In this document: positions 9,926-48,970 of the stretch, piece after piece
Position numbering within the stretch: the stretch's first letter is position 1
Layout of the letters: each line of letters opens with the position of its first letter
The notes under the pieces: model-generated
Database searches by the model: none
What the model saw: the letters and a program-made list of their open reading frames with translations, nothing else
Told to the model about the DNA's origin: nothing
Translations under genes and position numbers: made by a program
Assembly: GCF_013371465.1 (NCBI RefSeq)
Contig: NZ_JABWDU010000007.1
Location: 186,001 to 250,000 of the forward strand
Reading direction: 5' to 3'
DNA: 64,000 bases
Source of the DNA: Ensifer oleiphilus
GTDB taxonomy: Bacteria > Pseudomonadota > Alphaproteobacteria > Rhizobiales > Rhizobiaceae

Positions 9926-10687
9926 TCAGCCAATCAATTGTCGCGCATCCGAGGTCTGCTGGCGCATTTTCGCCAAACACGGAGCGATCCAGTGGTTACA
10001 TTCTTCACCCTCGGCGATTGAGCGGAGCTCATCCATGCTCAGGATTGTAATGATATGTCGATCCGTCATGGCAAGAATACCGCTCCCGGCAAACTTGGTC
10101 GTGGTACGCGAGACCGTCTCGATGGTCATGCCAAGATAGTCCGCAATATCCTGCCTTGTCATGGGAAGATCGACCACCATGTGTTGTCCTATGCGGCGGG
10201 TCGCCATTCGCAGGAGGAAACTTGCGAGTTTCTCGTCTGCGCTTCGACGCGATAGCAGGACGGCTTGGTCCTGTGCCGCCGTCATCTCATCGCAGAGCTT
10301 GGAAAAGAGCAGCTCCCGCATTGCCGGTTGACGAGCGATCTCGAGCTCGAAGAGATGGCGGGAGAAACGGCGCAACTCTACCTTCGTTACGGCTTCGACG
10401 GTGTAGACATACTGGTCCTTGAAGGATACCCCCACGAGATCACCGGGTCGCAAAAAGCCGACGATTATGCGGCGACCATCGCTCAGCAGACGGATGGCGC
10501 GCACCATGCCACAAACGACTTCGAAGACCTTGGTTGCCTTGTCTCCTTCCCAGAAGACGATTGTTCCCGCAGCGAAACGTTCGAGCGGCTGGTGCCTAAA
10601 GAGAGACGATAACCCGGTTGTACTGAAAGGCGCATCTTCAATCGAGGTTTGATTTGTTGGCTGAACCAGCCTTCGTGGCATGTTCAT
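9926..10687 (-). CDS. fixK: FixK-type Crp/Fnr family transcriptional regulator
   Basis: A 253-residue Crp/Fnr protein. Residues 35-125 form the cyclic-nucleotide-like sensor barrel (FAAGTIVFWEGD, then FLRPGDLVGVSF). A long dimer helix follows, then the winged helix LPMTRQDIADYLGMTIETVS (from about residue 178). The recognition helix keeps the E-x-x-S-R pattern (ETVSR) that reads TTGA half-sites. The N-terminus lacks the Cys cluster of oxygen-sensing Fnr/FnrN, which places it with FixK. GGAGGA precedes the ATG. FixK proteins activate microaerobic genes; three matching boxes lie in this window (11915, 18557, 19089). It stands among decayed genes. The symbol reflects the subfamily, not a proven orthologue. 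Confidence 0.85.
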   Translation of the reverse strand: MNMPRRLVQPTNQTSIEDAPFSTTGLSSLFRHQPLERFAAGTIVFWEGDKATKVFEVVCGMVRAIRLLSDGRRIIVGFLRPGDLVGVSFKDQYVYTVEAVTKVELRRFSRHLFELEIARQPAMRELLFSKLCDEMTAAQDQAVLLSRRSADEKLASFLLRMATRRIGQHMVVDLPMTRQDIADYLGMTIETVSRTTTKFAGSGILAMTDRHIITILSMDELRSIAEGEECNHWIAPCLAKMRQQTSDARQLIG

Positions 10688-10853
10688 CAGGCATCCTCCG
10701 CTGATCGTGACCGATCAAGTTGACGCCAGAGGCGTGACCGGCGGACGACAGACATGCTACACATTGTTCTGGTGTGTAACAGAGTGTAACTGCTTGCCGC
10801 ACTTGATCGCTGACAAAGTGCATTCAAAACGCTTTCAGGCAAGCAGCTGGAGC

Positions 10854-11360
10854 ATGCTCGTTTCGTCGACGATGACGAGAGTTCGCCAGGTGGTTGATCA
10901 GCACCGTCAAGATGAAGGGTTCCGGGTCAGCAGCGCTGGCGATAGTCGTACAATGCGCGATTTCTTGGCGCGTGGCGACATCGAAGTCGTCCTTCTCGAT
11001 GGGGTCCTTCCCGACACAGACGGATTTGCTTTGGCCCGCGATCTTCGCGCCCGATCCAACATTCCGTTATCATGCTGACGGGCGTAACGATCTGGTCGAT
11101 CGCGTCGTCGGCCTGGGACTTGGTGCAGATGACTATTTCTCCAGCCGTTCCATTTTCGCAGATTGCTTGCACGCATCAAGGTTGCCCTGCGTCGCCACGA
11201 TCCAGCCGGCAAAGATCGGGTTGAGGCCCAGGAGGAGTATTTCGATACGGAGATTGCGCGCTTACGTAGAAAGATAGAAGCAAATCCCACCAATTTATCG
11301 CTGGTCAAGTCGGTGCGGGGAGTTGGATCTGCTCTCAGTGCCCGACCCGTTCGGCAATGA
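10854..11360 (+). pseudogene. OmpR-family response regulator, frameshifted and internally deleted
   Basis: Pieces in two frames form a receiver domain: VRQVVDQHRQDEGFRVSSAG, then IEVVLLDGVLPDTDGFALAR with the phospho-Asp, then in another frame DLVDRVVGLGLGADDYF, and back in the first frame MLARIKVALRRHD. The C-terminal winged helix survives only as EIARLRRKIEANP and LVKSVRGVG; most of the effector domain is deleted. The start is also shifted: the expected VDDDES acidic pocket appears only in another frame. A two-component regulator was lost here. Confidence 0.75.
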
Positions 11361-11798
11361 TCAAACCGCTATAGGTATGACGATGCCCCTTCGAGGATCA
11401 GATCCTTTGGCAGGCCACACATTCGGGTCAATGTTTGCGACAATCATGTAGCTGCAGTGATCTGCTCGGGCCACTGTTTTCAAATGACCCAGAAGTGCGT
11501 TCGAGACGCCAGCAGTGTCGGAGACCGTTGCCACAATAAAAACGGGCACATCGAGTATGTGGCCGTAGTTCGGGTCGGTTCCAGGATAAGCGATGCAGAT
11601 GCCTTGTACATAGCCGATTGAATTTTCAACGGTGACAATTGAGCCTTGGGAAGATGCAACATATCGGCGATTGAAGTCGCGTTCGCAGATTGACCGCCAT
11701 TGCGCGAGATTTATCGGATAATCGACGATCTCGATCAGACGGAACGCCTTGTCGACCTGATGACGAAGGATCGGTCCGGTTCGATAAGCCATTGCCAT
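11361..11798 (-). CDS. Conserved hypothetical protein, possibly GNAT-like
   Basis: The ATG at 11798 has GGGAGAAG nine bases upstream; a longer frame to 11915 has no such site. The 145-residue product has an alternating beta/alpha pattern (VDKAFRLIEIVDYPINLAQW, then GSIVTVENSIGYVQGICIAY, then FIVATVSDTAGVSNALLGHL) reminiscent of small acetyltransferases, but a convincing acetyl-CoA loop is not visible. No signal or membrane segment. It is convergent with the response-regulator remnant. A FixK-type box lies 117 bases upstream of the start, so low-oxygen control is possible. Confidence 0.6.
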   Translation of the reverse strand: MAMAYRTGPILRHQVDKAFRLIEIVDYPINLAQWRSICERDFNRRYVASSQGSIVTVENSIGYVQGICIAYPGTDPNYGHILDVPVFIVATVSDTAGVSNALLGHLKTVARADHCSYMIVANIDPNVWPAKGSDPRRGIVIPIAV

Positions 11799-11914
11799 CA
11801 ACTTCTCCCTGATAAAGCCTCGGCCAATCCGCATTTCTTTGGGCGCCCGCCTGAGCCCGTACGTTGACCGCAGCCTTTGTCCGCAAAGGATCGGGCAATC
11901 GTCCGGCAAGGTCA

Positions 11915-11928
11915 TTGATGCCGGTCAA
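11915..11928. promoter_or_regulatory. FNR/FixK-type box
   Basis: TTGAT-GCCG-GTCAA fits the FixK/Anr consensus TTGA(T/C)-N4-(A/G)TCAA. It lies between the leftward gene starting at 11798 and the rightward carbamoyltransferase remnant starting near 12070, so it could have served either. No clear -10 element is seen at the ideal distance on either side. Confidence 0.55.
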
Positions 11929-12069
11929 TGCCCTTGGTGTTGGTCCGGGGTTTGTTGGATATGTCGCCAGTCCCGGACTGCGAAAAAGCGAGAAGCACCG
12001 AGGGCAACTTTGGGATATTCACTTTGGAGTAGCATGGTTTCGGCGCAATCATGAGAGTTGCGAAACGTT

Positions 12070-12915
12070 ATGTCGATCAATCTCCATGGCCGTAGCGTCC
12101 TTTCGGTGGAGGTGCTGGATCCAGGCGAGTTGCGGTTTCCCGTGCAAATGGGCGGCGACCTGAAAGTAGCAAACCGCTCTGGTAGTGAGCGCCCACACCT
12201 TTTCCAAAATCGTCTGGCGTTCTTGCATGGGCATGAACTGCCATTCATACGGGCGGCGTTCGAGCTCGCTGCGCACGATCAAGGCGCCCATGTCGTCGGT
12301 ATCGGGCCAGACCAGTCTGCGAACGCTGCGCCTGATGAGATCAGGCAAATGGCCGCGCTGTTTGGAAGAATATTCGATGCCATCGTATGTTGCGGGCTTG
12401 CTGACGATCTCATGACTGCCCTTGCCCAACGGGCGGGTATTCCACTCTTCAATGCCCTGTCGCAGCAATACGATCCTTGCCAGCTTGTGGCTGACTTCCA
12501 GACCATGCGTGAGCTCACGCATAAGCACCTCTCAGACTTGGCGTTGGCCGTGGTTGGAAACGGCCGGCTCGGCGGGGCTCGAACACTGGCTATCGGCGCT
12601 GCCAAGGTGGGGATGAATTTCCGCCTCGTGTCGCCCAAGGAACTGTGGCCGGATCAACAATTTATGGACGCGTCAAATCCGAAGCATGGAAAAACGGTGG
12701 CAGGTGTGCCGTGCTGGAAGACGTTGCAGCTGGCGTGCTTGATGCGGACTTCCTTCACGCCAGTCGCAGGGTTTGCCACGGGGAGGATCAAGCCCGCAAT
12801 GACCACGCGGTTGCACTCCTCACGCCGTTTGGCATCAGAACGGCGACGCTTGAGGCGACCGGCAAACCGCATTGCAAGTTCATGCGCTTCGTGCCTGATT
12901 TCATCTGTCATCATG
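12070..12915 (+). pseudogene. Ornithine carbamoyltransferase (arcB/argF type), decayed
   Basis: The frame from 12070 follows the family from its first residue: INLHGRSVLSVEVLDPGELR, AAFELAAHDQGAHVVGIGP, AGIPLFNALSQQYDP, then LALAVVGNGRLGGARTLAIG and AAKVGMNFRLVSPKELWP. Near 12640 the homology moves to another frame: LEDVAAGVLDADFLHASRR, then LEATGKPHCKFMRFVPDF, after which it ends. Catalytic elements are gone: the STRTR carbamoyl-phosphate loop reads HGHELPFIR, HPTQ reads DPCQ, and HCLP reads RFVP. It is therefore non-functional. A catabolic arcB under FixK/Anr control would suit the upstream box; that origin is inferred. Confidence 0.8.
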
Positions 12916-14068: not shown

Positions 14069-15064
14069 TCAGGCTGCAATGCCGGCGATCCTGGGAATGA
14101 ACCAGAGCATTGCGCTGGTGCCGACCCCGTAGGCTATCGCCCGGCGCGCAAGGGCGGCGTGGAGACCGACCATCGTGCGCCCCGCCCAGGCAATCGCCAA
14201 GGCCCCGGCAACAAAGATGATCTGTCCCGCTTCGACGCCGAGGTTGAACGCCAGCAGGCTCAGCGGCACATCGGATTGCGGCAGGCCAATCTCCTTCAAA
14301 GCGCCGGAAAAACCGAAGCCGTGCAAGAGGCCGAAGGCGAATGCCACGACCCAGGGATAGGTTTCCGAGAGGCGCGCTTTGGTAGGTCGGGACTTGAGCA
14401 ATTCGCGCGCGACGAATGCAATGCTGAGCGCGATCGTCGCCTCCACCGGCCGTTGGGGAAGGCTGAGATAGCCCAGCGATGCTCCCGCAAGCGTGATGCT
14501 GTGGGCGACGGTGAAGGCTGTGATCGTCTTGAGCAGCATCCAGCGGTCATGGATCAGCAACATGAGCGCGAGCACAAAGATCAGATGATCGAAGCCCAAG
14601 AGTATGTGCTCAATGCCCAGCAGGAAATAGGTTCGGGCGACTTCAAGATAGGATTGGTTGCCCGCCGCAGTGAAGGAGGGAGCTTCCGGCAAAAGGCGCC
14701 CAACCTCGGTGCCGCCATTCTTGTATTCGATGCGCACCAGGGCTTCGGTCAATGTGGCCTTGAGCCCGTCGATGACGATCTTTCCATCCCGCAACCCCCC
14801 CGCACAGTCGGCGGTCCACCGCTCCAGATAGGCGCTGCCTTCGAACGACCGTGTCGGCGTTTCCCTTTCGATGCACTGTTTTGGCAGATGCGCGTCGAGT
14901 GCCAGCCGCATCCTGCCCTGCGCCGGCACTTTCCAGAGAACGGCGAAGGTTTCGTGCGCTGTTTCTCGAATGTCGAGAAAGGCCGGTCGCACCTCATGGG
15001 CGATAGCGGGAGCGCCGAGCAGCATCAGGATCGGCAGGGCGAAAAGGGCGGCAGGCGCTCTCAT
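14069..15064 (-). CDS. HupE/UreJ family membrane protein (putative metal permease)
   Basis: The start is the ATG at 15064, overlapping the stop of the upstream parvulin gene (ATGA). The 331-residue product has a signal peptide ending in AIAHEVRPAFLDI, a periplasmic beta-rich region to about residue 165, then about six membrane helices beginning at LLGIEHILLGFDHLIFVLAL. The His-rich GIEHILLGFDH segment and the FGLLHGFGFSG motif are typical of HupE/UreJ proteins, which are linked to nickel or cobalt uptake. It is the third gene of an operon with DUF3604 and PpiC-like proteins. No hydrogenase or urease genes are nearby, so the transported substrate is open. Confidence 0.8.
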   Translation of the reverse strand: MRAPAALFALPILMLLGAPAIAHEVRPAFLDIRETAHETFAVLWKVPAQGRMRLALDAHLPKQCIERETPTRSFEGSAYLERWTADCAGGLRDGKIVIDGLKATLTEALVRIEYKNGGTEVGRLLPEAPSFTAAGNQSYLEVARTYFLLGIEHILLGFDHLIFVLALMLLIHDRWMLLKTITAFTVAHSITLAGASLGYLSLPQRPVEATIALSIAFVARELLKSRPTKARLSETYPWVVAFAFGLLHGFGFSGALKEIGLPQSDVPLSLLAFNLGVEAGQIIFVAGALAIAWAGRTMVGLHAALARRAIAYGVGTSAMLWFIPRIAGIAA

Positions 15065-16020
15065 GGGCCGTCCCCCGCGGCAGTGGGTGTTTCGACGCTG
15101 ATCTGGTAGCGAGCGAGCAGTTCGGCGAAGCGTTGCCGTTCGAGTTCGGCACGCTTCGCGTTTCCCCACTCCCTTGCCACGTCGTCGCGGACGTCCTCGA
15201 GTTTTGGCATCCGGCCTGGCTCATGCTTCGAGACCCGCACCAGATGGAGGCCAAAGCTGCTGGCGATTGGTCCCGTCCACTGACCGAGCGGAGCCTTTTC
15301 GAGCCCTTCCGCAAGGCTTCCACCGAAGAACTGGTCGATGGCTGACCTACTTGTGAGCTGCACGACCGCGGGAAGCAGGGAGACATCACCAAGCGAAGCG
15401 GGGTCGGCCGTGTCGTTGCTGCGGAGGTTCGCGAGCAAGGCGGCGGCGTCCTCGGCGATCGTCTTGCCATGCCGGGTGGGATTGAGAAACACCTGCTCGA
15501 ATGCCAGCTTCGTATCGGTGGCGAAGGCTGCCGGATTGGCCTCGAGATAGTCTTCCAGTTCCGGATTGGTGGCCGTCACGGGGTCGGCGCTCAGGAACTC
15601 CATTTTCTGCCGCAGGCGGCGTCGCACGATCGCGTCGTCGCGGTCGAGCCCGAGTTCCAGCGCCTGGCGCACCAGGATTTCTTCCTTGATATAGTCGTCG
15701 ATCATGCCCTTCAGTTCGCCCGCTGTCGGGGAGCGCTGCCAGGTCTTGTCAAACAAGGCGGCCATCTGCTCGATTTTCGCCGCAGTGACCACGATCTCGT
15801 CGGGTGCCTTCGCATTGCCGCCAAGCAGACCGTTTGCGGCGAAGATCAGCAGCGCCAGCGCCAGAAAATGCAGCAAAGGCTCTCTCAAGACACGCTTCAG
15901 CATGCTCGCCGTACTCGTTTGCCTTGCGACAGGTGCCGACGGCGTGGAGGGCGTCGCGCTCGTGTCGGGTGTGCCATCGGTGGGCTCATGGCGTGTACCA
16001 GATCGGAGAGGTGTAGGCAC
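15061..16020 (-). CDS. Membrane-anchored parvulin-type peptidyl-prolyl isomerase
   Basis: The 319-residue product has a Pro/Thr/Ser-rich N-terminus, a single membrane segment (LLHFLALALLIFAANGLLGG), a SurA-like chaperone region with IKEEILVRQALELGLDRDD, and a C-terminal parvulin domain ending in SSFGLHLVRVSKHEPGRMP. It should face the periplasm. The GTG start at 16020 overlaps the end of the DUF3604 gene by 35 bases; an internal ATG at 15903, just before the membrane segment, is an alternative. Its stop overlaps the hupE-like start. A role in folding one of the operon partners is a plausible inference. Confidence 0.8.
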   Translation of the reverse strand: MPTPLRSGTRHEPTDGTPDTSATPSTPSAPVARQTSTASMLKRVLREPLLHFLALALLIFAANGLLGGNAKAPDEIVVTAAKIEQMAALFDKTWQRSPTAGELKGMIDDYIKEEILVRQALELGLDRDDAIVRRRLRQKMEFLSADPVTATNPELEDYLEANPAAFATDTKLAFEQVFLNPTRHGKTIAEDAAALLANLRSNDTADPASLGDVSLLPAVVQLTSRSAIDQFFGGSLAEGLEKAPLGQWTGPIASSFGLHLVRVSKHEPGRMPKLEDVRDDVAREWGNAKRAELERQRFAELLARYQISVETPTAAGDGP

Positions 16021-17929
16021 GCTCGGTCACTGTCATGCGCGTGCCTTCCAGCGGCTTCGTTCCAAAACGCTTGGCGTCATAGGCGGTCCACCGGGGTGTC
16101 GGGATTTCAAGCACGCGGCCGTAGTAGAAGGCCTTCTGCTTTGGGTCGAACTCCGGATCCTTCCAGACCGCGATCAGTTCCGGAGCGCCGATGGTGTTGG
16201 TCCAGGTCGCGCTTTCGACGTCGACAGTATTGCCGACGGATGGCAATTTGCCGTCCGGCCCCGGCTTGCGATCGCCGCTCCAGGCGACATCGTAGACGTG
16301 TTCATGTGTCTCGCCCTTGTCGTCGAGCCAACCCTTGACGACCTGGTAGCGATCGAGGTTTGCTCCCAACGGGTCTTTAAGGGCCGCTACGAGAAACGTC
16401 GGCGCTTTTCCTTCCGGTGCGCCGGACAAGTCGCCCCCCATTGGCACGCCCTTACCATAGCCTGTTGCAGCAGGATTGCGATTCTGAGTATCGGCTTGCT
16501 CAAAGTCGAAGCTGCCGAAAAAGCGCACCATCATGCGCGATCCCGTGGTCGCATAAGTCTCCTTGCGTTGCATCGCATCCCAAATAGATTCGCGCGTATT
16601 CTCCATCGCCCAGACAGCGGCATAGCCTGAGGCGCTGACCTGCCAATCCATTATTTTGATGCCTGCTTCGGGATTGTTGATGAAAGTGCCCTTCAGCCTT
16701 TCCTTGTTGGGTTCCATCGCCGATGTTTTGCCGAAATAATTGTCCTCCTCCATCGCCGGAAGGCCCGTATGGGCGTCAGAACTGCCTACCATGCCGAACT
16801 TGTACGGGTTGGTGCCTAGTTCCGCTTCGAGTTTGAGGCCATTGCGCAGCGCTGATCGGGCATACTCGAATTCGAGCATTTCAGGGGTCTTGGTTACAGT
16901 GGCATCCAAGTTGCCAAAATCCCATGTTTCGAAATCGGCAAACTCGTCATTTGGGGAGAGCGCCGGATGGGTTTCGCCATCGCCCTTTTCCTGCGTGGCC
17001 TCATAGAGGCGTTCCCATTTGGCGCGCTTTTCGACATAATCTTGGTCGACCGGCTTATTAGTAAACGACTCAATGATAGGGAACATAATGCCATTGGACA
17101 GGTTGCCGTTATGGGCGATCGCCAGCACGTTCCCCCCTGTCTTATCTTCATAGGCTTGCATCCAGTCCCAAAGGTCGCGAGGGTTGTCGCTGCCGAGTGG
17201 CTTCGAGGTGGTAAAGGGCAGGACCTGATCGGCCTTGTCGCCATTGTCGCGGAAAATGACGTTGCGATGAAGATTGTTGCCACCGGTGTTAGAAGTCCAC
17301 TCATAGCCAATCAGGGTCGTAAATCGACCAGGATCGTTGAACTCGTCCGCAGCCTTGACGTTATCTTGCCAGGCCGATTTGAAGGCGCGGCTATCCGGCA
17401 GGTAGTTCATGCTCTTGGGAATCGTCCCTGCGCCGAAAGCCATGATGATCTGAATAGCTGCCTCGCCGCCTCGACCTGACTTCATCATGTCGTACCAAGT
17501 CTTGGCTTGCGGATCAGCCAGAATCTCCGGCTTGCCTGCAAACATATCCGGGAATAGGCCTAAATTGTCGGAGTGGTCAGCGACCACGAGGAAGTCGAGT
17601 GCTCGCGACAGCTTCGCCGGCTCTCCGCCGGATGCCACGACTTCTTCCCCGCGGGCGAAGCGATAAGCGTCACGCGGGGTCAGTCTCGCACCGAATGCGC
17701 CGGCGTCGAAAGAAGCAGCTGTGTGCAGATGCGTGTCGCCGAAGAGCGGGCGGGTTGGAAAATTGCGGCCTGCGTAAGGCGAATAGGGACTCTTTTCGGG
17801 GAAGATCAGTGCGGCCTTCTCTGAGGTCAACGTCCCCACATCGCCTCCAACTTCCTGGGCGAAGACGGGCAGGGCTGAGACAGAGAGAAGCACGACTCCA
17901 AGTCGGAAGACTGCGGCTGAGTGCACCAT
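15986..17929 (-). CDS. DUF3604 family exported protein with PHP-like metal motifs
   Basis: The ATG at 17929 has GGGAGG six bases upstream; the longer frame from 17959 does not. The 647-residue product begins with a signal peptide (VVLLSVSALPVFAQ). Motifs resembling a PHP-type metal site are spread along it: FGDTHLHTAASFDAG, FLVVADHSDNLG, VLAIAHNGNLSNG and GMVGSSDAHTG, which supply His and Asp ligands. A C-terminal beta-rich region follows (from about residue 490). DUF3604 proteins are periplasmic and uncharacterised; hydrolase activity is inferred from the motifs. It heads an overlapping three-gene operon with parvulin and HupE-like genes, and a hexanucleotide repeat lies about 100 bases upstream. 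Confidence 0.8.
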   Translation of the reverse strand: MVHSAAVFRLGVVLLSVSALPVFAQEVGGDVGTLTSEKAALIFPEKSPYSPYAGRNFPTRPLFGDTHLHTAASFDAGAFGARLTPRDAYRFARGEEVVASGGEPAKLSRALDFLVVADHSDNLGLFPDMFAGKPEILADPQAKTWYDMMKSGRGGEAAIQIIMAFGAGTIPKSMNYLPDSRAFKSAWQDNVKAADEFNDPGRFTTLIGYEWTSNTGGNNLHRNVIFRDNGDKADQVLPFTTSKPLGSDNPRDLWDWMQAYEDKTGGNVLAIAHNGNLSNGIMFPIIESFTNKPVDQDYVEKRAKWERLYEATQEKGDGETHPALSPNDEFADFETWDFGNLDATVTKTPEMLEFEYARSALRNGLKLEAELGTNPYKFGMVGSSDAHTGLPAMEEDNYFGKTSAMEPNKERLKGTFINNPEAGIKIMDWQVSASGYAAVWAMENTRESIWDAMQRKETYATTGSRMMVRFFGSFDFEQADTQNRNPAATGYGKGVPMGGDLSGAPEGKAPTFLVAALKDPLGANLDRYQVVKGWLDDKGETHEHVYDVAWSGDRKPGPDGKLPSVGNTVDVESATWTNTIGAPELIAVWKDPEFDPKQKAFYYGRVLEIPTPRWTAYDAKRFGTKPLEGTRMTVTERAYTSPIWYTP

Positions 17930-18030
17930 TGGGGACCTCCCATTCCTTTGCATGATCAATCAAAGATGATCTGGATGTAAAAATTGTCTGATTGTTCGTA
18001 GTGGCGCCCGGCAAAAATGCAGTAATAACA

Positions 18031-18070
18031 GTAGAAGTAGAAGTAGAGGTAGAGGTATAATTAGAAGTAG
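18031..18070. repeat. Degenerate GTAGAA hexanucleotide tandem repeat
   Basis: About 6.5 units (GTAGAA, GTAGAA, GTAGAG, GTAGAG, GTATAA, TTAGAA, GTAG) lie about 100 bases upstream of the DUF3604 start, in otherwise non-coding sequence. It may sit in the promoter region. Confidence 0.7.
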
Positions 18071-18217
18071 TCGTGGCTACGTGCAACCCGCCCGTGGTGC
18101 GCGGGCAGTCCCTGCAACACTCACATTGATTTGAGCAGTTGGCCAAGTGACTCGCGGGGCTATGCTATCTTCCCAGTGCCTGTTTGCAGAAGCGGTTTCC
18201 CCAATTTGCAAGGCTGC

Positions 18218-18478
18218 TCAATTGCTTACGCTGAAATTCCAACACGTCGTCTTTTGGCGTCGGCGGTTGCGGAAAAATTGGCCGTTGGGCGAAATATAGA
18301 CTGCGTCACCATCCTTGTTGACCCTGTAAAGGTATCCGGCACGCCAACTCTGATCCGGTTCTGCGTAGCATGTTGGAGCGGTCGGAAGGCCTGGAGGTAC
18401 GGCTTTTGCTATCGCATCAATGGTCGCAGTCGCGAATACCGAAGTGCTGCAGGCGACAATAACCGAAACATTGGACAT
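18218..18478 (-). CDS. Small orphan protein behind an FNR/FixK promoter
   Basis: An 86-residue frame with a weak hydrophobic N-terminus (MSNVSVIVACSTSVFATATI), a Pro-rich stretch, then AEPDQSWRAGYLYRVNKDGD and a basic tail (FFRNRRRQKTTC). GAGG lies about eight bases before the ATG. It is not recognised. Support comes from its promoter: a perfect TTGAT-CCAA-ATCAA box at 18557-18570 with TAATTT at 18529-18534, placed as in class II FNR promoters and pointing at this frame. It may be exported, given the N-terminus. Confidence 0.5.
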   Translation of the reverse strand: MSNVSVIVACSTSVFATATIDAIAKAVPPGLPTAPTCYAEPDQSWRAGYLYRVNKDGDAVYISPNGQFFRNRRRQKTTCWNFSVSN

Positions 18479-18528
18479 CTGTACGGCCTCGGTACTTTGG
18501 AGCCTCCTCTAGAAGCCGAGGATAAGGT

Positions 18529-18570
18529 AAATTAGGTTGCAGGCCATGTATCGGCTTTGATCCAAATCAA
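18529..18570 (-). promoter_or_regulatory. Class II FNR/FixK promoter for the 18478 gene
   Basis: The box TTGAT-CCAA-ATCAA (18557-18570) is a perfect palindromic FNR/FixK site. In the leftward direction TAATTT (18534 down to 18529) is centred 32 bases from the box centre, the spacing expected when the activator sits at about -41.5. The predicted transcript begins near 18522. Confidence 0.7.
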
Positions 18571-18727
18571 ATATTAGTCCAGTCCCATTCGCATATACGC
18601 CAAACATGAAATTGTGCAGGCGCTGGGAATCATCATCGGCAGTCACTTATGCTGTAGAATTATTGTATCACAACGCTCCCCGTTGTGCATTCTGCGCCAA
18701 ACTAGGTGGTGAGATCCGCTAGAAGGG

Positions 18728-19015
18728 TCAAGTGATAAGAAGTCGCTGGAGGCCGATGTATTCCGTTCTTAAGCCTGCCGATCGCGCGATATGCACATGT
18801 CGGTTGACTCCGGCGAGATCGATACTGAGGCAACCGCGCTCTCTGGCGAGGAGCGCCTGATCGGCCGAATCTAACCACGCATGTGCTTGCGGAGAGATGA
18901 CTTCGATCTCCCACCCTTTGTTTCGAGAATACGTCACGCGAAAGTCTGGTTCGGTCCCAATTCCGCCTGACTGCCCTGTTTGCCGAGGATGGATCCGTGA
19001 GTGTCCGCGCATCAT
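18728..19015 (-). CDS. Small orphan protein behind a second FNR/FixK promoter
   Basis: A 95-residue frame starting at ATG-ATG (19015/19012) after GGGAGAAG. The product is soluble and mixed alpha/beta: EPDFRVTYSRNKGWEIEVIS, then HAWLDSADQALLARERGCL and GVNRHVHIARSAGLRTEYI. It is not recognised; nothing suggests export. A perfect FNR/FixK box and matching -10 element lie upstream (19062-19102), arranged almost identically to those of the 18478 gene. It is divergent from the MgtA-type ATPase. Confidence 0.6.
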   Translation of the reverse strand: MMRGHSRIHPRQTGQSGGIGTEPDFRVTYSRNKGWEIEVISPQAHAWLDSADQALLARERGCLSIDLAGVNRHVHIARSAGLRTEYIGLQRLLIT

Positions 19016-19061
19016 CTTCTCCCTTTTTCCGCGTCGACAATGATTGCTTTTAGGTCTTCAT

Positions 19062-19102
19062 AAATTAGATGAGACTAACGTAATTTCATTGATCCATATC
19101 AA
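19062..19102 (-). promoter_or_regulatory. Class II FNR/FixK promoter for the 19015 gene
   Basis: TTGAT-CCAT-ATCAA (19089-19102) is a perfect box. Leftward, TAATTT (19067 down to 19062) is centred 31 bases from the box centre, matching class II geometry. The box also lies about 180 bases upstream of the divergent mgtA gene, but no good -10 was seen in that direction. Confidence 0.7.
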
Positions 19103-19282
19103 GGAGAGGCGATACCACTTGAGTGATCTCGTTGCCTGTTGAGGGTCAAGTTGTGAAAAACAAACTCGCACTAAAGCGGTGGCATTTTAGACACGGGATT
19201 ATGTGCGGGTGCGACATCGCTCTTTTCGGCGTAAGATGAGGGAAGAATTCTTCGCAAGAGCTTATGATGATCGGACCTTTGA

Positions 19283-21835
19283 ATGGGCGAGGCTACTGCT
19301 GACGCTCCCTACTGGAGCCAGGACCAGGCCGCGTTAGCGGCGTCTCTCGGATCCGTCCCCCTAGGTCTTACCTCCGATGCCGCTGCCGCTGAGCTTGCCC
19401 TTGTTGGCCCCAACAGCGTCGAGGATACGGTGCATCTGAATGCCCTACGGCTCCTGCTGCGTCAGTTCGAAAGCCCTCTTGTGCTCATCCTGGCCTTCGC
19501 CGCAGCGATCTCTCTGGTCCTGCAGCAATGGGTCGATGCCGGCATCATTCTGGCCATCGTAATGGGAAGCTCACTGCTGAGTTTCTATCAGGAGTACCGG
19601 GCGTCCACCGCAGTCGAGGAACTGAAGAAACGCCTCGCGCTGACCTGCCGCGTCGTTCGCGATGGAGCGGAGCAACAAGTCTCGGTCAGCACGATCGTTC
19701 CCGGTGATCTCATTCTGTTATCGGCTGGTAATCTCATTCCAGCGGATGGCGTTGTGATCGATGCGGCGGACTTTCTTGTCACCGAGGCAAGCATGACCGG
19801 CGAGTCCTTCCCAGTCGAGAAGCGCCCGGGAACCATCAGGCCGGACGCGCCCATCACGGAGCGGACAAATTCGGTATTCCTGGGCGCATCGGTGCGCAGC
19901 GGTACGGCAAAGGTGCTTGCGGTAAATACAGGCCGCCGAACCGAGTTCGGCGCGATTGCCGCTAGGTTGCGGGCGCGTCAGCCTGAAACCGACTTCGCCC
20001 GCGGCGTGCGCCAGTTCGGCTATCTGCTCATTCGCGTAATGATTGTGATCGTCCTGTTTGTGCTGACTGTGAACCTCCTGCTCGATCGTCCGGTAGTTGA
20101 GTCGCTGCTATTCGCCGTTGCTTTGGCCGTTGGACTGTCGCCGGAGCTTTTGCCAGCTATCATCAGCGTCACCCTCTCGGCTGGCGCACGCGCAATGAGC
20201 AAGCGTGGGGTTATCGTGCGGCGGCTCGACGCTATCGAGAATCTTGGCAGCATGGACATCTTGTGTACCGACAAGACCGGCACGCTGACCGAGGGCACCA
20301 TCGTTCTGAGCGATGTGCAGGACGCTGCCGGCCGTCCGTCGGAAAAGGTTCGACGGCTCGCGTTCCTGAATGCCGCGTTCGAGACCGGGATCAAGAACCC
20401 GTTGGATGCGGCGATTGTGGCGGCAGGCAAGGGCGCCGGCCTCACAACGAGCGGTCTGATTAAGATCGACGAAATCCCGTACGACTTCATGCGGCGTAGG
20501 CTGACCATCGTCCTGGCGGAAGGTGCAGCACCGACGCAGCATCTGTTCGTGACCAAAGGGGCGTTTTCGAACGTGCTCGACATTTGCACCTCGGTCGACC
20601 GCAATGGCGTCGACGTTCCGCTGGATGCCAAAGCGCGAGCAGAACTCGAGACCTTGTTTAAGGCCAGCGGCGCCGAAGGATTTCGGGTGCTCGCGGTTGC
20701 CACCCGTAGGGTCGCAATAGAGGCGGACTACGACCGCGACGACGAGCGCGAGATGACCTTTTGTGGCTTCCTTGTCTTCTATGACCCACCCAAGGCGGAT
20801 GCAAAACGCACGATCCATGACCTCAATCGTCTTGGCATCCGCATCAAGGTGATCAGCGGCGACAATCGCTACGTAACTGCCCATCTCGCCGAGGCTGTCG
20901 GACTGGATGCCAAATCCATGCTCACCGGCGAAAAACTTGCGACTTTGAAAGACGAGGCGCTGTGGCACCTCGCGCCGCGCACCGACCTCTTCGTCGAGAT
21001 TGATCCCCAGCAGAAAGAACGTATCGTGCGCGCGCTCCAGCGGACCGGGCACTCGCTCGGCTATCTCGGCGACGGGATTAATGACGCGCCGGCCCTTCAT
21101 GCGGCCGATGTCGGCATCTCCGTCGAAGAGGCGGTCGACGTTGCGCGCGAGAGCGCCGACATCATCCTGTTGAGCCGCGACCTGGACGTCCTCCGCACCG
21201 GCGTTGAGGATGGTCGGCAGACATTCGCCAACACGCTGAAATATATTTCGATAACGACAAGCGCGAATTTCGGCAACATGATCAGCATGGCGCTAGCGAC
21301 ACCTCTTTTGCCGTTCCTGCCGCTCGCAGCCAAGCAGATCCTTCTCAACAATTTCCTCTCCGACGTGCCTTCGATCGCGATCTCCAGTGATAACGTCGAT
21401 CCGGAGCGAGTGCTGCGTCCGCAGCGTTGGAACATCAAGGATATTCGGAAATTCATGGTCCTCTTCGGGCTGATCAGTTCAGTCTTCGATCTCTTGACAT
21501 TCGGCGTCCTGCTCCTCGTTTTTCATGCGAATGAGGCGACGTTTCAGACGGCTTGGTTCATGATCTCGCTATTGACGGAACTGGCGGTGGTGCTCGTCCT
21601 ACGCACCCACAAGCCCGCTTTCCGCAGCAAACCCAGTCAGTTGCTCTTGTGGTCGACCGTTGCGGTGGTGGTCGCGACTTTTGCCATTCCGTTCCTTGGA
21701 GGCTCGACTTCGGTGTTCGGGTTCGTACCGCTCTCAACGGCCCAACTGGCTGCTATTGTGGTCATCGTGCTCGGATACATCCTAGCCACAGAAATGGCGA
21801 AGGCGTGGTATTTCAAGTTCGAGAACTCGACGTGA
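19283..21835 (+). CDS. mgtA: Magnesium-type P-type ATPase (P3B subclass)
   Basis: P3B ATPases drive Mg2+ into the cytoplasm. The 850-residue length is close to MgtA/MgtB. Visible elements are an N-terminal cytoplasmic extension, helices at about 64-98, the actuator loop TGES (172-175), the M4 motif VGLSPELLP (283-291), the phosphorylation site CTDKTGT with D330, the nucleotide-binding domain, the hinge GDGINDAPAL near residue 594, and about six C-terminal helices starting around KQILLNNFLSDVPS. The start lacks a strong ribosome site. An FNR/FixK box lies upstream and a small EF-hand-like gene downstream. The substrate is inferred from the subclass. Confidence 0.9.
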   Translation: MGEATADAPYWSQDQAALAASLGSVPLGLTSDAAAAELALVGPNSVEDTVHLNALRLLLRQFESPLVLILAFAAAISLVLQQWVDAGIILAIVMGSSLLSFYQEYRASTAVEELKKRLALTCRVVRDGAEQQVSVSTIVPGDLILLSAGNLIPADGVVIDAADFLVTEASMTGESFPVEKRPGTIRPDAPITERTNSVFLGASVRSGTAKVLAVNTGRRTEFGAIAARLRARQPETDFARGVRQFGYLLIRVMIVIVLFVLTVNLLLDRPVVESLLFAVALAVGLSPELLPAIISVTLSAGARAMSKRGVIVRRLDAIENLGSMDILCTDKTGTLTEGTIVLSDVQDAAGRPSEKVRRLAFLNAAFETGIKNPLDAAIVAAGKGAGLTTSGLIKIDEIPYDFMRRRLTIVLAEGAAPTQHLFVTKGAFSNVLDICTSVDRNGVDVPLDAKARAELETLFKASGAEGFRVLAVATRRVAIEADYDRDDEREMTFCGFLVFYDPPKADAKRTIHDLNRLGIRIKVISGDNRYVTAHLAEAVGLDAKSMLTGEKLATLKDEALWHLAPRTDLFVEIDPQQKERIVRALQRTGHSLGYLGDGINDAPALHAADVGISVEEAVDVARESADIILLSRDLDVLRTGVEDGRQTFANTLKYISITTSANFGNMISMALATPLLPFLPLAAKQILLNNFLSDVPSIAISSDNVDPERVLRPQRWNIKDIRKFMVLFGLISSVFDLLTFGVLLLVFHANEATFQTAWFMISLLTELAVVLVLRTHKPAFRSKPSQLLLWSTVAVVVATFAIPFLGGSTSVFGFVPLSTAQLAAIVVIVLGYILATEMAKAWYFKFENST

Positions 21836-28788: not shown

Positions 28789-29595
28789 TCAGGTGAAGCG
28801 TTCTTCCAGATAACCAACACCAAAATCGACAATGTCCTTAGCGTCGAAAACGATGGAGCAGGCCCTGCCGACGATCCCCTGCGTGTGCCGCCCCTCGAGC
28901 AGGTAAGCGCGCGCAATGGACTCAACCGCATCCATGGTGGCTTCTCCCGCAAAGACGTCTAGAATGCCGTTCGAGTCAAATTCTGCAACGTCGACCCAGT
29001 CCGGAGGAGATGAGCCTCCAGGCTGGGGCGCTCGATAAGTAATGATGCGTTTGCCGGGAATGCGCGCTACGGCCTCCGCGTAGTGAAGCACCGTGACGGA
29101 ATCGAGCGGAGCTCCTAGCAGCAGGACCTTGCATCCGCGTGCTATAAGTCGCTCAATCGGGGAGCCCGGCCCATAGCCTGTGCCGAGGGGGTGAAGCGCG
29201 GTAATCTCGCTCGCCAGGGCGCCCACGGCAAAAATGGACGCGTCGGGATGGGGGCTGCGATGCGTGCCATCCAGTCTTAACAGGAAGGTGTTGAGCGTGC
29301 CGAAGCCGTGGTACGGAGGGGAATCGGGTTCGAAGCGTGGCCAGGCGCGTTCTTCTTTCCTTGGAAGACGTCGCCCACCAAGCGTTGCTTCGTAGGGCGA
29401 ATACTCCCAGGATACATAGGCTGCGAGCGTGCCGGCCGCCCCGACGGCTTCTCTTAACGCTAAGGCGACTGTCATAGGTCCACCATCAACAGGTCCGACC
29501 GTGCTCAGCGATGCATGGACCATCACCACATCGCCGTCGCGGATGCCCAGCCGTCGCAAATCGTCAATCAAGGATTTTTTTGTACTCGCTTGCAT
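28789..29595 (-). CDS. Aminoglycoside N(3)-acetyltransferase family protein
   Basis: The ATG at 29595 has AGGAGG six bases upstream. The 268-residue length suits the AAC(3)/YokD family. Typical segments are RRLGIRDGDVVMVHASLSTV, a GTLNTFLLRLDGTHRSPHPD loop, ITALHPLGTGYGPGSPIERL and VLLLGAPLDSVTVLHYAE. These enzymes acetylate the 3-amino group of 2-deoxystreptamine aminoglycosides with acetyl-CoA, but many chromosomal relatives have other or unknown substrates. Resistance cannot be claimed from sequence. It is cytoplasmic and monocistronic. Confidence 0.82.
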   Translation of the reverse strand: MQASTKKSLIDDLRRLGIRDGDVVMVHASLSTVGPVDGGPMTVALALREAVGAAGTLAAYVSWEYSPYEATLGGRRLPRKEERAWPRFEPDSPPYHGFGTLNTFLLRLDGTHRSPHPDASIFAVGALASEITALHPLGTGYGPGSPIERLIARGCKVLLLGAPLDSVTVLHYAEAVARIPGKRIITYRAPQPGGSSPPDWVDVAEFDSNGILDVFAGEATMDAVESIARAYLLEGRHTQGIVGRACSIVFDAKDIVDFGVGYLEERFT

Positions 29596-30415
29596 CGAGG
29601 GCCTCCTGTATCTGGCGAATAACGCCAGCCAGGCGACCATTTGCGCAAGTCCCTTCGCGCAGGAAACGTCGCACGGATTGGGCCCAAGGCGTGCGGAAGC
29701 TCTGTCTCGTCGATTTTGAGCAGCAAAGTCCTAGTTGTTGCACTAACAAGCCGCCGGGGGGAGATGTTTCCGACCCAGCTTTTCCAGGTGCAGGTCGGCA
29801 TTGAAACCATAGACAACCATGCTGGCAACGATCCACCGGCGGCCACAATCTTCTGACGAAGTTCGAACTTGGCGCGGACAGCAACCGCTTCAATCGCGGT
29901 ATTGACACCCGTGCCCCCGTTAGTGCCCTCATCAATCGCGAGGCATGTTCACCGCTCAACGGGATCGTCTGCGTTGCACCGAAACGTCTTGCAACAATCA
30001 GCCGGTTCTTGCGTAAGTCGGTCCTGATGCGTTCTCCTGGCGGTTTGAGTCGCGCGTCATATGTCGAGATCGCTCTTGCCCGCAAGAAATTGCCTTGGTC
30101 TGGATGTCGGTGCCGGGAGATGCGTGGGGCGCAACGCGCTCTACAAGGAGCATCAGTGAATATCGACGCTGACGACCTGTTCTGTGGTTGCCGAACCAGT
30201 CCGTTTGATGGCTCGGCTCTATTCGCTCATGCCGTCAGGCAACAGCAAGGTTCAAGAAGACCGGGGCCTCCGTCATCCAGTGGAAGATCCACTGCGAAAG
30301 AGAACAAGAGGTCCATCTTTGCAATGAGGGAAAGTGCCTTTTGTTGCGGCTCGGCCTGCTCTCGGAGACCGCGGTATCGCATTCTCCGAGATCGGGGGAG
30401 GATACTCGGATCGCG
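29596..30415. other. 820 bases without a recognisable gene
   Basis: Overlapping open frames run on both strands (for example 29564-30085 leftward and 30009-30458 rightward), but none shows family motifs or a credible start. This may be old decayed coding sequence. Confidence 0.4.
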
Positions 30416-42193: not shown

Positions 42194-43150
42194 TCAAAAA
42201 TATCGGTTCCTGGAGCAGTCGGCCAATTTGATCTGTTCTGGAAATTGTTTTCGAACAAGCTGAAAGTCAGAAAAGTCCAGGCGTCGCGAAAGCTTGCAAT
42301 TGTCGGAAACCGTACGTTTGGTCCATGCGACGCGCGCCGGATCGACAGTCGTGATCTTTTGATCCACGTCAGCGACTGCCATTTTGGCGCCGGCTGGAAG
42401 CGCTGACGCCTTCTCCTGCTTCGGCTTTTCTGCAATCATCGCTTCCGTGGTGATCAGAAGGCCCGCCACGGAGGCTGCGTCCTGGAGAGCCGTCCTTCCA
42501 ACCTTTACCGGGTCGATTACCCTCATTGCGAACAGATCGCCATCCTCTCCGGTCTGCGCGTTCCAGCCGAACTGCAGATCAGACTTTTCCCGAAGTTTGC
42601 CGACCACGATGGACCCTTCCGCCCCCGCATTTTCAGCGATCTGGCGAACCGGGGCCTCGACCGCGCGCCGAACAATATCGATCCCGACACGCTGCTCGTC
42701 GTTGGCGAAGGCAAGATTGTCGAGGGCCTTGGTGGCGCGCAGCAGCGCCACGCCGCCGCCAGGCAGGATGCCTTCCTCGACGGCAGCACGGGTTGCGTGC
42801 AATGCATCGTCGACGCGATCCTTCTTCTCCTTGACTTCGATTTCCGTCGAGCCGCCGACGCGCATGACGGCCACGCCGCCGGCGAGCTTGGCCAGGCGTT
42901 CCTGCAACTTCTCGCGATCGTAGTCCGAACTGGTCTTCTGGGCCACGCGGCCGTCGATTTCCGCCTTTGAGCCGACACCGTCGATGATCGTGGTATTTTC
43001 CTTCTCGATCACCACCTTCTTCGCACGACCAAGCATGTTGAGGGTGACGTTTTCCAGCTTGATGCCGACATCCTCGGAAACGACCGTGCCGCCGGACAGG
43101 ACGGCGATGTCTTCGAGCATCGCCTTGCGCCGGTCGCCGAAACCGGGGCC
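42194..43150 (-). pseudogene. groEL fragment lacking its N-terminal half
   Basis: The frame encodes GroEL from [20 protein letters not shown] onwards (roughly residue 275 of about 540) through the apical, intermediate and C-terminal equatorial segments, including [15 protein letters not shown] and [18 protein letters not shown]. Upstream the frame runs into unrelated sequence and a stop, so the break is near 43150. The usual Gly-Gly-Met tail is missing too: after ALPAGAKM comes about 60 unrelated residues. Without the N-terminal ATP-binding half it cannot be a chaperonin. Confidence 0.85.
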
Positions 43151-47457: not shown

Positions 47458-47713
47458 CCGACAATCGATCACGCAACTTGAAGGTGGAACATTCCAGCGG
47501 CGATTGTGTTCCCTAAAGAGGTCGCAGGCTGTGCCAAGCGGACGCGATGGGGATGGAGAACATCAGGATTTTTCCGCTTTCTCCTTTTGGCCAACGAAAG
47601 GGCAGCCGAGCTTCTTACCCATCCAGCCTGGGACCGTCCGTTTCACGGTCGAACTTCTGCGCCGCAAATGCTAAAGCCCACCCTCGGTCATTGTGTGTCG
47701 ACAGGACAAACTC

Positions 47714-48970
47714 ATGGCAAAACGTTCGGGTAGTGCCGATCTCCCACTCCACGGCGGGCGCGTGCCCAGGTGGCTTGGAGATCGCATGACCAGGCTCGGC
47801 GCCGTGATCACCGAAGCCATTATCCTGCACTACGGCCGCGATGAGTTTCTGCGTCGGATGGCACACCCTTTCTGGTTTCAGTCGTTTGGTGCAGTCATGG
47901 GCATGGACTGGCATTCTTCTGGCATCACCACCAGCGTCATCGGCGCGCTGAAGCGCGGCCTGACGCCAATATCATCTGAGCTCGGGCTCCATGTTTGCGG
48001 TGGGCGAGGTGCGCAGTCGCGCAAAACTCCGGCAGAGCTGCTTGCCATCGGCGATCGGGTGGGTCTTGACGCCCAGCATCTTGTGACAACCAGCCGCCTC
48101 GTCGCCAAGATAGACAGTGCCGCGGTTCAGGACGGTTTCGACCTCTATCTGCACGGCTTCATCGTCACCGACGATGGTCATTGGGTCGTTGTCCAGCAGG
48201 GCATGAATGGCGATCAACGGCAGGCCAGGCGCTATCACTGGCTGTCGGAAAACCTGGAGAACTTTCTCGACAGCCCACATGCGGCGATTGAAGGAAACAC
48301 CCAGGGTGTCATCGTCAATCTTGCTGACCGACGGGCGGAACGGTCGCGAGAAGGTCAGCTTGATCTGCTCGCAAACATGGGTCCCGACCGCATCGTTCGC
48401 GAAGTCGTCGCAGTCAGACGCACCGACCCTGCTGTTGAAAGTCTTCCAGATCAGCTGCCGCTTCCCCATCTGCTCATGCCGGTCCATCACGACGTGCGGG
48501 AAAAGGACGTCAACATGAGCCGTCTGCATGCAGCACTCGCTGCTGCATCCGAGCGAGGCCCTAAGGACTTCCAGGAACTGCTTCTGACGCCCGGCGTCGG
48601 CGCCCGAACGGTAGAGGCGCTGGCCATGGTCGCTGAAGTGGTTCACGGCGCACCGTGCCGCTTTTCAGACCCGGCTCGCTTTTCGCTCGCTCACGGCGGC
48701 AAGGATCGTCATCCGTTTCCTGTTCCGTTGAAGGTCTATGATGAAACGATCAGGGTGATGAAGTCGGCCGTCTCGAAGAGCAAGCTCGGATATACAGAAG
48801 AACTTGAGGCGATTCGGCGTCTAGATGAGCAGGCGCGTCGCCTCGAACACTACGTGACCGGCCCCGATCTGAAGGAAATCGTTGCCGGCGAATTTAGCCG
48901 CTCAGCGTCACTCGGCGGACGCAGTGTCTTCGGATGGGAGCCGCCTCAAGACCCAGAGCCTTCAGGATAA
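47714..48970 (+). CDS. DUF763 domain protein with a helix-hairpin-helix-like motif
   Basis: The ATG at 47714 begins the conserved MAKRSGSADLPLHGGRVPRW; the 418-residue length suits DUF763. This family of archaeal and bacterial proteins is uncharacterised. Visible segments are HYGRDEFLRRMAHPFWFQSF, FDLYLHGFIVTDDGHWVVVQ and, near residue 295, LLLTPGVGARTVEALAMVAE, which reads as a helix-hairpin-helix and suggests DNA contact. No membrane or signal segment. Its neighbour encodes a base-excision glycosylase, so a repair role is possible but unproven. Confidence 0.85.
   Translation: MAKRSGSADLPLHGGRVPRWLGDRMTRLGAVITEAIILHYGRDEFLRRMAHPFWFQSFGAVMGMDWHSSGITTSVIGALKRGLTPISSELGLHVCGGRGAQSRKTPAELLAIGDRVGLDAQHLVTTSRLVAKIDSAAVQDGFDLYLHGFIVTDDGHWVVVQQGMNGDQRQARRYHWLSENLENFLDSPHAAIEGNTQGVIVNLADRRAERSREGQLDLLANMGPDRIVREVVAVRRTDPAVESLPDQLPLPHLLMPVHHDVREKDVNMSRLHAALAAASERGPKDFQELLLTPGVGARTVEALAMVAEVVHGAPCRFSDPARFSLAHGGKDRHPFPVPLKVYDETIRVMKSAVSKSKLGYTEELEAIRRLDEQARRLEHYVTGPDLKEIVAGEFSRSASLGGRSVFGWEPPQDPEPSG

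Follow-up and report, generated by a model that had tools for sequence, protein, structure and literature searches.

Two FixK/FnrN-type boxes in an Ensifer oleiphilus contig mark candidate low-oxygen promoters before a small-protein gene of a patchy rhizobial family and a doubtful second frame

In rhizobia, FixK/FnrN control decides respiration and nitrogen fixation where oxygen is low, in nodules and wet soil, and two palindromes of the kind bound by these regulators, each followed by a short unnamed frame, raise the question of which genes they serve. In the window (the whole 64-kb stretch of DNA analysed), an initial annotation had described two near-identical class II promoters reading leftward into frames of 86 and 95 residues (Table 1). 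Scanning of the window bore out the perfect boxes, both frames and a leftward TAATTT at class II spacing behind each box, with 32.0 bases from hexamer centre to box centre at box 1 and 31.0 bases at box 2. 'Near-identical' holds for box and hexamer, which are all that P1 and P2 have in common, and fails for the spacers, whose sequences are unlike and whose lengths differ by 1 nt; at P2, an overlapping TCTAAT at offset 19 outscored TAATTT. The predicted transcript starts lie near 18522 (P1) and 19055 (P2). The TTGAT-N4-ATCAA consensus and the name 'anaerobox' are given in the accessible text of PMC7888657, and FnrN and FixK recognise very similar sites according to the part of PMC4999443 available to us; the predicted activator is accordingly named here as FixK or FnrN, indistinguishable by sequence, and oxygen control and the transcript starts and ends are likewise predictions. 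It is probable, in our reading, that both boxes are class II FixK/FnrN promoters, P2 serving the 95-aa gene and P1 the 86-aa frame and maybe, beyond it, a DUF3604 operon. Taken singly, P2 is very probably a low-oxygen promoter and P1 quite probably one, the odds for P1 having been raised because either unit downstream of it has box-bearing relatives. The 'low-oxygen' assignment of the two frames themselves is a fair guess from the regulon.

Table 1. Features of the locus, in window coordinates
Feature	Position	Strand	Remark
fixK-like Crp/Fnr regulator	9926-10687	minus	Pfam HTH_Crp_2, cNMP_binding, Crp
K-box GTTACA-N4-GTTACA, GTTACACTCTGTTACA	10775-10790	minus	upstream of fixK-like gene; the genome's only perfect one
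Interrupted response-regulator-like frame	10850-11370	plus	three-frame translation with stops; divergent from fixK
HupE/UreJ family gene, DUF3604 operon	14069-15169	minus	PF13795
Peptidyl-prolyl isomerase gene, DUF3604 operon	15061-16020	minus	name from homologous plasmid records
DUF3604 gene, operon start	15986-17959	minus	PF12228; 258 nt behind 86-aa frame
86-aa frame, diverged and shortened family member	18218-18478	minus	profile comparison
P1 -10-like hexamer TAATTT	18534-18529	minus	22 nt after box 1
Anaerobox 1 TTGATCCAAATCAA, FixK/FnrN-type palindrome	18557-18570	.	perfect match
95-aa gene, unnamed family	18728-19015	minus	alternative ATG at 19012
P2 -10-like hexamer TAATTT	19067-19062	minus	21 nt after box 2
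Anaerobox 2 TTGATCCATATCAA, FixK/FnrN-type palindrome	19089-19102	.	perfect match; recurs upstream of 95-aa relatives
MgtA-type P-type ATPase	19283-21835	plus	TIGR01524; divergent from 95-aa gene

Exactly two perfect TTGAT-N4-ATCAA sites were found in the window, 532 bp apart. The region is A+T-rich for the genome (GC 0.43-0.58 across 18000-19200 in 200-nt steps), so that two A+T-rich palindromes with fortuitous hexamers might be imagined to have arisen by chance in a low-GC stretch; this is hardly credible, and already disfavoured for P2, as the mean chance level was 0.04 perfect boxes per window, none of 100 dinucleotide shuffles reached two sites, and box and spacing recur across genomes at 95-aa relatives. 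Across the 6.76-Mb assembly 16 perfect boxes were counted, against none for the reversed pattern used as a control. The surroundings of the boxes were read with a simple reading-frame picker and the frames named by eye: 6 of the 14 sites outside the window adjoined genes expected in a microoxic regulon (ccoN; hemN paired with an FnrL-like gene; genes for a universal stress protein, an alcohol dehydrogenase and a Crp/Fnr protein; and a cytochrome c gene with one for a universal stress protein behind it), while some of the remaining ones sat within coding frames, for example of a SulP-type transporter and a CysN-like GTPase, where they may be chance occurrences. Similar target sequences are predicted for the FNR, FixK and DNR groups (accessible part of PMC2908626), and the two sites could accordingly bind another Crp/Fnr regulator, of DNR type, with nitric oxide rather than oxygen as the signal; the ccoN, hemN and universal stress genes beside other perfect boxes of the genome and the pairing of some 95-aa family members with FixK-like genes leave this only a slight chance. 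As for the placing of FixK/FnrN-type sites, the anaerobox regulon of rhizobia described in the accessible text of PMC7888657 and PMC4999443 resembles the window in having TTGAT-N4-ATCAA at an activator-type position, and the 95-aa and 86-aa products are not among the members described there. The boxes are centred at -85.5 (box 1) and -80.5 (box 2) from the start codons, compared with -87.5 for the anaerobox of rlv_1399, an FnrN-dependent small heat-shock gene of R. leguminosarum (available part of PMC11784457); the rlv_1399 protein is unrelated, and the FnrN dependence of that gene was measured.

The 95-aa frame is, judging by comparison with its relatives, a real gene of a conserved but undescribed family that is patchy and accessory, as it was matched in 20 of 394 Rhizobiaceae genomes (10 of 109 genera; profile of seven sequences, E <= 1e-4) and, within the genus, in one of 15 other genomes, where the copy is split in two frames. 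A window-type protein was present in none of those 15 genomes, and the search of genome contigs returned a single relative, in Ensifer sp. LCM 4579. A search of plasmid records at E <= 0.1 gave 52 matches to the window protein, all from Sinorhizobium or Rhizobium, and 106 to a second copy present in its own genome, on contig C2; the viral contigs searched contained no match. The C2 copy is 37% identical to the window protein over 65 residues, and its ATG lies 29 nt past the stop of a FixK-like gene. Family members follow the pattern DFRV...W-I...S..A..W...DLAG.N...AR..G..TEYIG, and between close relatives third codon positions vary most, with 6, 4 and 16 differences at codon positions 1, 2 and 3 between the S. 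sojae and LCM 4579 copies and 12, 12 and 30 between the C2 copy and one from S. meliloti. What is left of the family on the pSymA-type replicons of S. meliloti is a 48-aa stretch between universal stress and cytochrome c genes; strain BL225C has a member with no annotated feature in the plasmid table, and S. meliloti strains including BL225C carry variable 'microaerophilic' gene sets and FixK-like copies (accessible part of PMC3164228). The product, of about 10 kDa, is probably cytosolic. Searches of Pfam, NCBIfam and PHROGs gave no usable family; Pfam PH_29 touched two of seven members (best E 0.0049) and was set aside. Nothing similar at E <= 1 was found among the sequences of solved structures. 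Two AlphaFold2 models built from two-sequence alignments had low confidence (mean pLDDT 65.3 and 66.1), and the second suggests a strand-strand-helix-strand-helix-strand order. Foldseek returned no match at E <= 0.001 with these models, and the two best matches in VIA-align 2, a TFIIH/XPB-type chain (Z 5.7, rmsd 5.4, 78 aligned) and the UvsW helicase (Z 5.6, rmsd 2.7, 67 aligned), were below the tool's telling level. Literature searches (supplements and most subscription journals lying outside their scope) produced no paper naming the protein; the predicted FNR/FixK targets in the available part of PMC2908626 include a P-type ATPase, a universal stress protein and hypothetical proteins. On accessory DNA that differs between strains, the family is a testable candidate for an unrecognised part of the low-oxygen response.

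Upstream of the relatives, the 200 nt preceding each start or match were searched for a box with no more than one mismatch. One was found at 15 of 26 family loci (window counted), far above the background in the same loci outside that zone (58 boxes in 438,327 bases, or 0.13 per kb, window left out). All eight loci of the window's subfamily had one (window counted), compared with three of ten C2-like loci and four of the remaining eight; as the loci are related and the subfamilies were formed by similarity, the small binomial values are only indicative. The set of 26 was made without L025 (near-identical to L023), G068 (near-identical to G286), repeat fetches of the same locus and four weak or partial matches (G285, G076, G268 and G084_C24); among these, one-mismatch boxes occur in the 300 nt preceding the match in G068, L025 has no box, and the four others have none at up to one mismatch. 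The 11 loci without a box within 200 nt comprise four C2-like loci where a box is found upstream of a FixK-like gene preceding the small gene (perfect in L082, with one mismatch in L019, L083 and L085), and seven that have neither. The -10-like score, taken over 17 box-bearing promoters (P1, P2, the promoter of the 86-aa homologue in R. leguminosarum and the four FixK pairs included), peaked at offsets 20-24, about 22 nt after the box, a peak reached in none of 2000 single-base shuffles, several individual hexamers being weak. The co-occurrence of the 95-aa protein with such boxes in rhizobia is borne out by these counts, and the initial reading of it as a putative low-oxygen gene stands up well.

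Neighbouring genes were compared in a set of 26 loci from which the window was left out and in which L025 was included, distances being taken from hit midpoint to small-gene start. A Crp/Fnr-type gene lay within 9 kb in ten of them and within 2.2 kb in seven (tblastn, E 1e-8). The small gene lies about 1.2 kb from hemN in two loci that also contain ccoN, and universal stress, cytochrome c, alcohol dehydrogenase, fasciclin-like and P-type ATPase genes are among the other neighbours. In 11 of the 26, some of which adjoin contig ends, all seven low-oxygen gene types looked for were missing; two of six control loci have one of these types, one of them on the C2 contig of the same genome. In L082 (10870-11182), L083 (10724-11066) and L085 (2199-2567), a common intergenic region separates divergent pairs of differing FixK-like genes; GTTACA repeats lie at one flank of it and an anaerobox at the opposite flank.

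Since the genes of some members stand immediately 3' of one for a FixK-like regulator, the 95-aa protein may, by analogy with FixT, be an accessory of the FixK circuit, a conjecture to which we give less than even odds. The narrower idea of a partner dedicated to FixK-type regulators, microoxically induced and tuning FixK/FnrN output in a feedback role but with no sequence relation to FixT, is less likely still; under it, one subfamily would have the gene cotranscribed with FixK, and others would carry it alone on an anaerobox promoter. The FixK-adjacent position had also suggested that the 95-aa protein might be FixT, an identification dropped for want of sequence similarity. In profile comparison, the family matched a pSymA frame beside a fixK homologue, which by eye looks FixT-like, with a probability of 0.1, and this frame itself matches no Pfam model. 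FixT, as described in the accessible part of PMC7078487, is a small FixL inhibitor under FixLJ control that is found, like the 95-aa protein, in low-oxygen regulatory neighbourhoods; it is receiver-domain-like, and no similarity of the 95-aa family to the pSymA FixT-like frame was detected.

Box 2 lies between divergent genes, and the pump on its other side was correctly named as MgtA-type, with 794.7 bits against TIGR01524 (magnesium-translocating ATPase; curated cut-off 610.75); any role of the shared box for it is putative. A palindrome can be read either way, the ATPase start is 180 nt to the right, and P-type ATPases occur near family members in L030, L079 and L082 (in L079, of genome G084, a homologue of the pump with 46.8% identity over 848 aa is directly downstream of the family member on the same strand). 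That box 2 chiefly serves the ATPase, or serves both sides, is nevertheless improbable: the rightward hexamer at 21 nt is TGATCT compared with TAATTT to the left, and in relatives the box stays with the small-protein gene, even at loci in which no ATPase was detected (L022, L075-L077).

The frame behind box 1 is a weaker case. GC by codon position in the 86-aa frame is 0.49, 0.54 and 0.54, a weak bias (0.64, 0.43 and 0.72 in the ATPase), and the window copy falls short of its relatives at both ends, missing their basic N-terminus and most of their C-terminal part; by eye, these relatives begin with a signal-peptide-like stretch and have a cysteine pair in common. The family is probably exported, and the window copy may be a decaying gene. 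A single-sequence search matched 67 of 394 genomes at E <= 0.05, mostly weakly and several with internal stops. With a profile of three sequences, for which L035 from a plasmid and two relatives (G228 and G159, both at E about 1e-10) were used, 23 of 394 genomes were matched. Support for the initial reading of this frame is thin. Its role as the target of box 1 has in its favour the homologue from R. leguminosarum ATCC 14479 (L035), an annotated gene weakly matched (E 0.02), with a perfect TTGATACTGATCAA that starts 126 nt ahead of the gene start and a less clear hexamer spacing. Against it stand the shortening, the weak codon bias and the relatives: scanning of 19 of the 23 profile matches (the genome itself and three without loci left out) gave a near-box, with one mismatch, within 400 nt in one, and the L062/L063 relatives from two more genomes (48% identity over 58 residues), included in that scan, have no box. 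That the 86-aa product is functional is doubtful, its odds being lowered because DUF3604 relatives also have boxes.

The DUF3604 - peptidyl-prolyl isomerase - HupE/UreJ operon, on which the initial annotation is silent, is found on other rhizobial plasmids as well. Boxes were sought at 28 of 30 loci of DUF3604 matches (partial L131 and L138 left out; ten more matches had no locus). The homologous loci numbered 27. Among orthologues at 77-80% identity a box lies close upstream of DUF3604 in four of five (perfect in L114, L115 and L117, with one mismatch in L118, none in L116), and homologues at 72% identity or less had no box in any of 22 loci. Of ten plasmid records covering the operon, six were scanned; a perfect box was present in L072 and L143, one with a single mismatch in L145 and L074, and none in L073 and L144. 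The box in these relatives is at most about 100 nt from a start codon with a ribosome-binding-like GGGGAAGCG or GGAG ahead of it (by eye). The boxes in relatives suggest that 14069-17959 (-) is a hitherto unrecognised low-oxygen operon.

Box 1 may thus be the box of the DUF3604 operon with the 86-aa frame between, or both units may form one transcript. There is nearly an even chance that it belongs to the operon (17959-14069), with the 86-aa frame as a leader or a decayed gene in between. The operon is on the strand read from P1, after a gap of 258 nt in which no minus-strand terminator-like site was found, by a weak method; four of five close orthologues and four of six plasmid records have their own box just upstream; the region 17900-18700 of the window holds box 1 alone, even at up to two mismatches; and the 86-aa frame has the shortening and weak codon bias described above. 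On the other side, box 1 is about 600 nt from the operon, compared with tens of nt in relatives, the TAATTT spacing implies a start just before the 86-aa frame, and the full-length homologue in L035 has a perfect box to itself at a locus where no DUF3604 gene is annotated close by. The boxes before DUF3604 in relatives make the 86-aa frame weaker as the purpose of P1, and P1 stronger as a low-oxygen promoter. Our reading of P1 begins with the 86-aa frame and leaves room for readthrough.

A regulator that could act on both boxes is present in the genome as the fixK-like gene of the window and an FnrL-like gene, both scoring below equivalog cut-offs. FixK was the best NCBIfam model for the former, and the E-x-x-SR recognition helix attributed to it was confirmed by eye as E-T-V-S-R, with no N-terminal cysteine cluster; the FnrL-like gene, beside hemN (L013), encodes N-terminal cysteines (by eye). 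The accessible text of PMC7888657 gives the K-box as the operator of FxkR before fixK, and the FxkR pathway described there resembles the window in this K-box before fixK and in the kinds of genes neighbouring the boxes of the anaerobox regulon. FxkR is an OmpR-family response regulator (available part of PMC7769827), and the interrupted frame divergent from fixK is possibly a decayed fxkR relic, an identity suggested by its position only. A likely chain would run from hFixL-FxkR to fixK and on to the two anaeroboxes, each step being predicted, with FnrN as an alternative activator. At low oxygen, a FixK or FnrN dimer would bind at about -41.5 and recruit RNA polymerase to TAATTT, and transcription from both boxes would run leftward: from P2 to the 95-aa protein, of a rhizobial family that appears to travel with FixK genes and low-oxygen clusters, and from P1 first through the doubtful 86-aa frame and then, perhaps, onward into DUF3604 - peptidyl-prolyl isomerase - HupE.

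Some minor observations concern the rest of the window. After a one-mismatch anaerobox at 11915, fragments at 11864-12900 (+) resemble ornithine carbamoyltransferase (by eye) and are possibly a decayed low-oxygen arginine gene. An aminoglycoside 3-N-acetyltransferase family protein (PF02522) is encoded at 28789-29640 (-), and a frame at 42194-43120 (-), beside a GTP cyclohydrolase-like gene (by eye), matches the C-terminal part alone of the GroEL/Cpn60 model. The Rfam Rhizobiales sRNA Atu_At1 is located at 47522-47629 (+), and a DUF763 protein at 47693-48970 (+).
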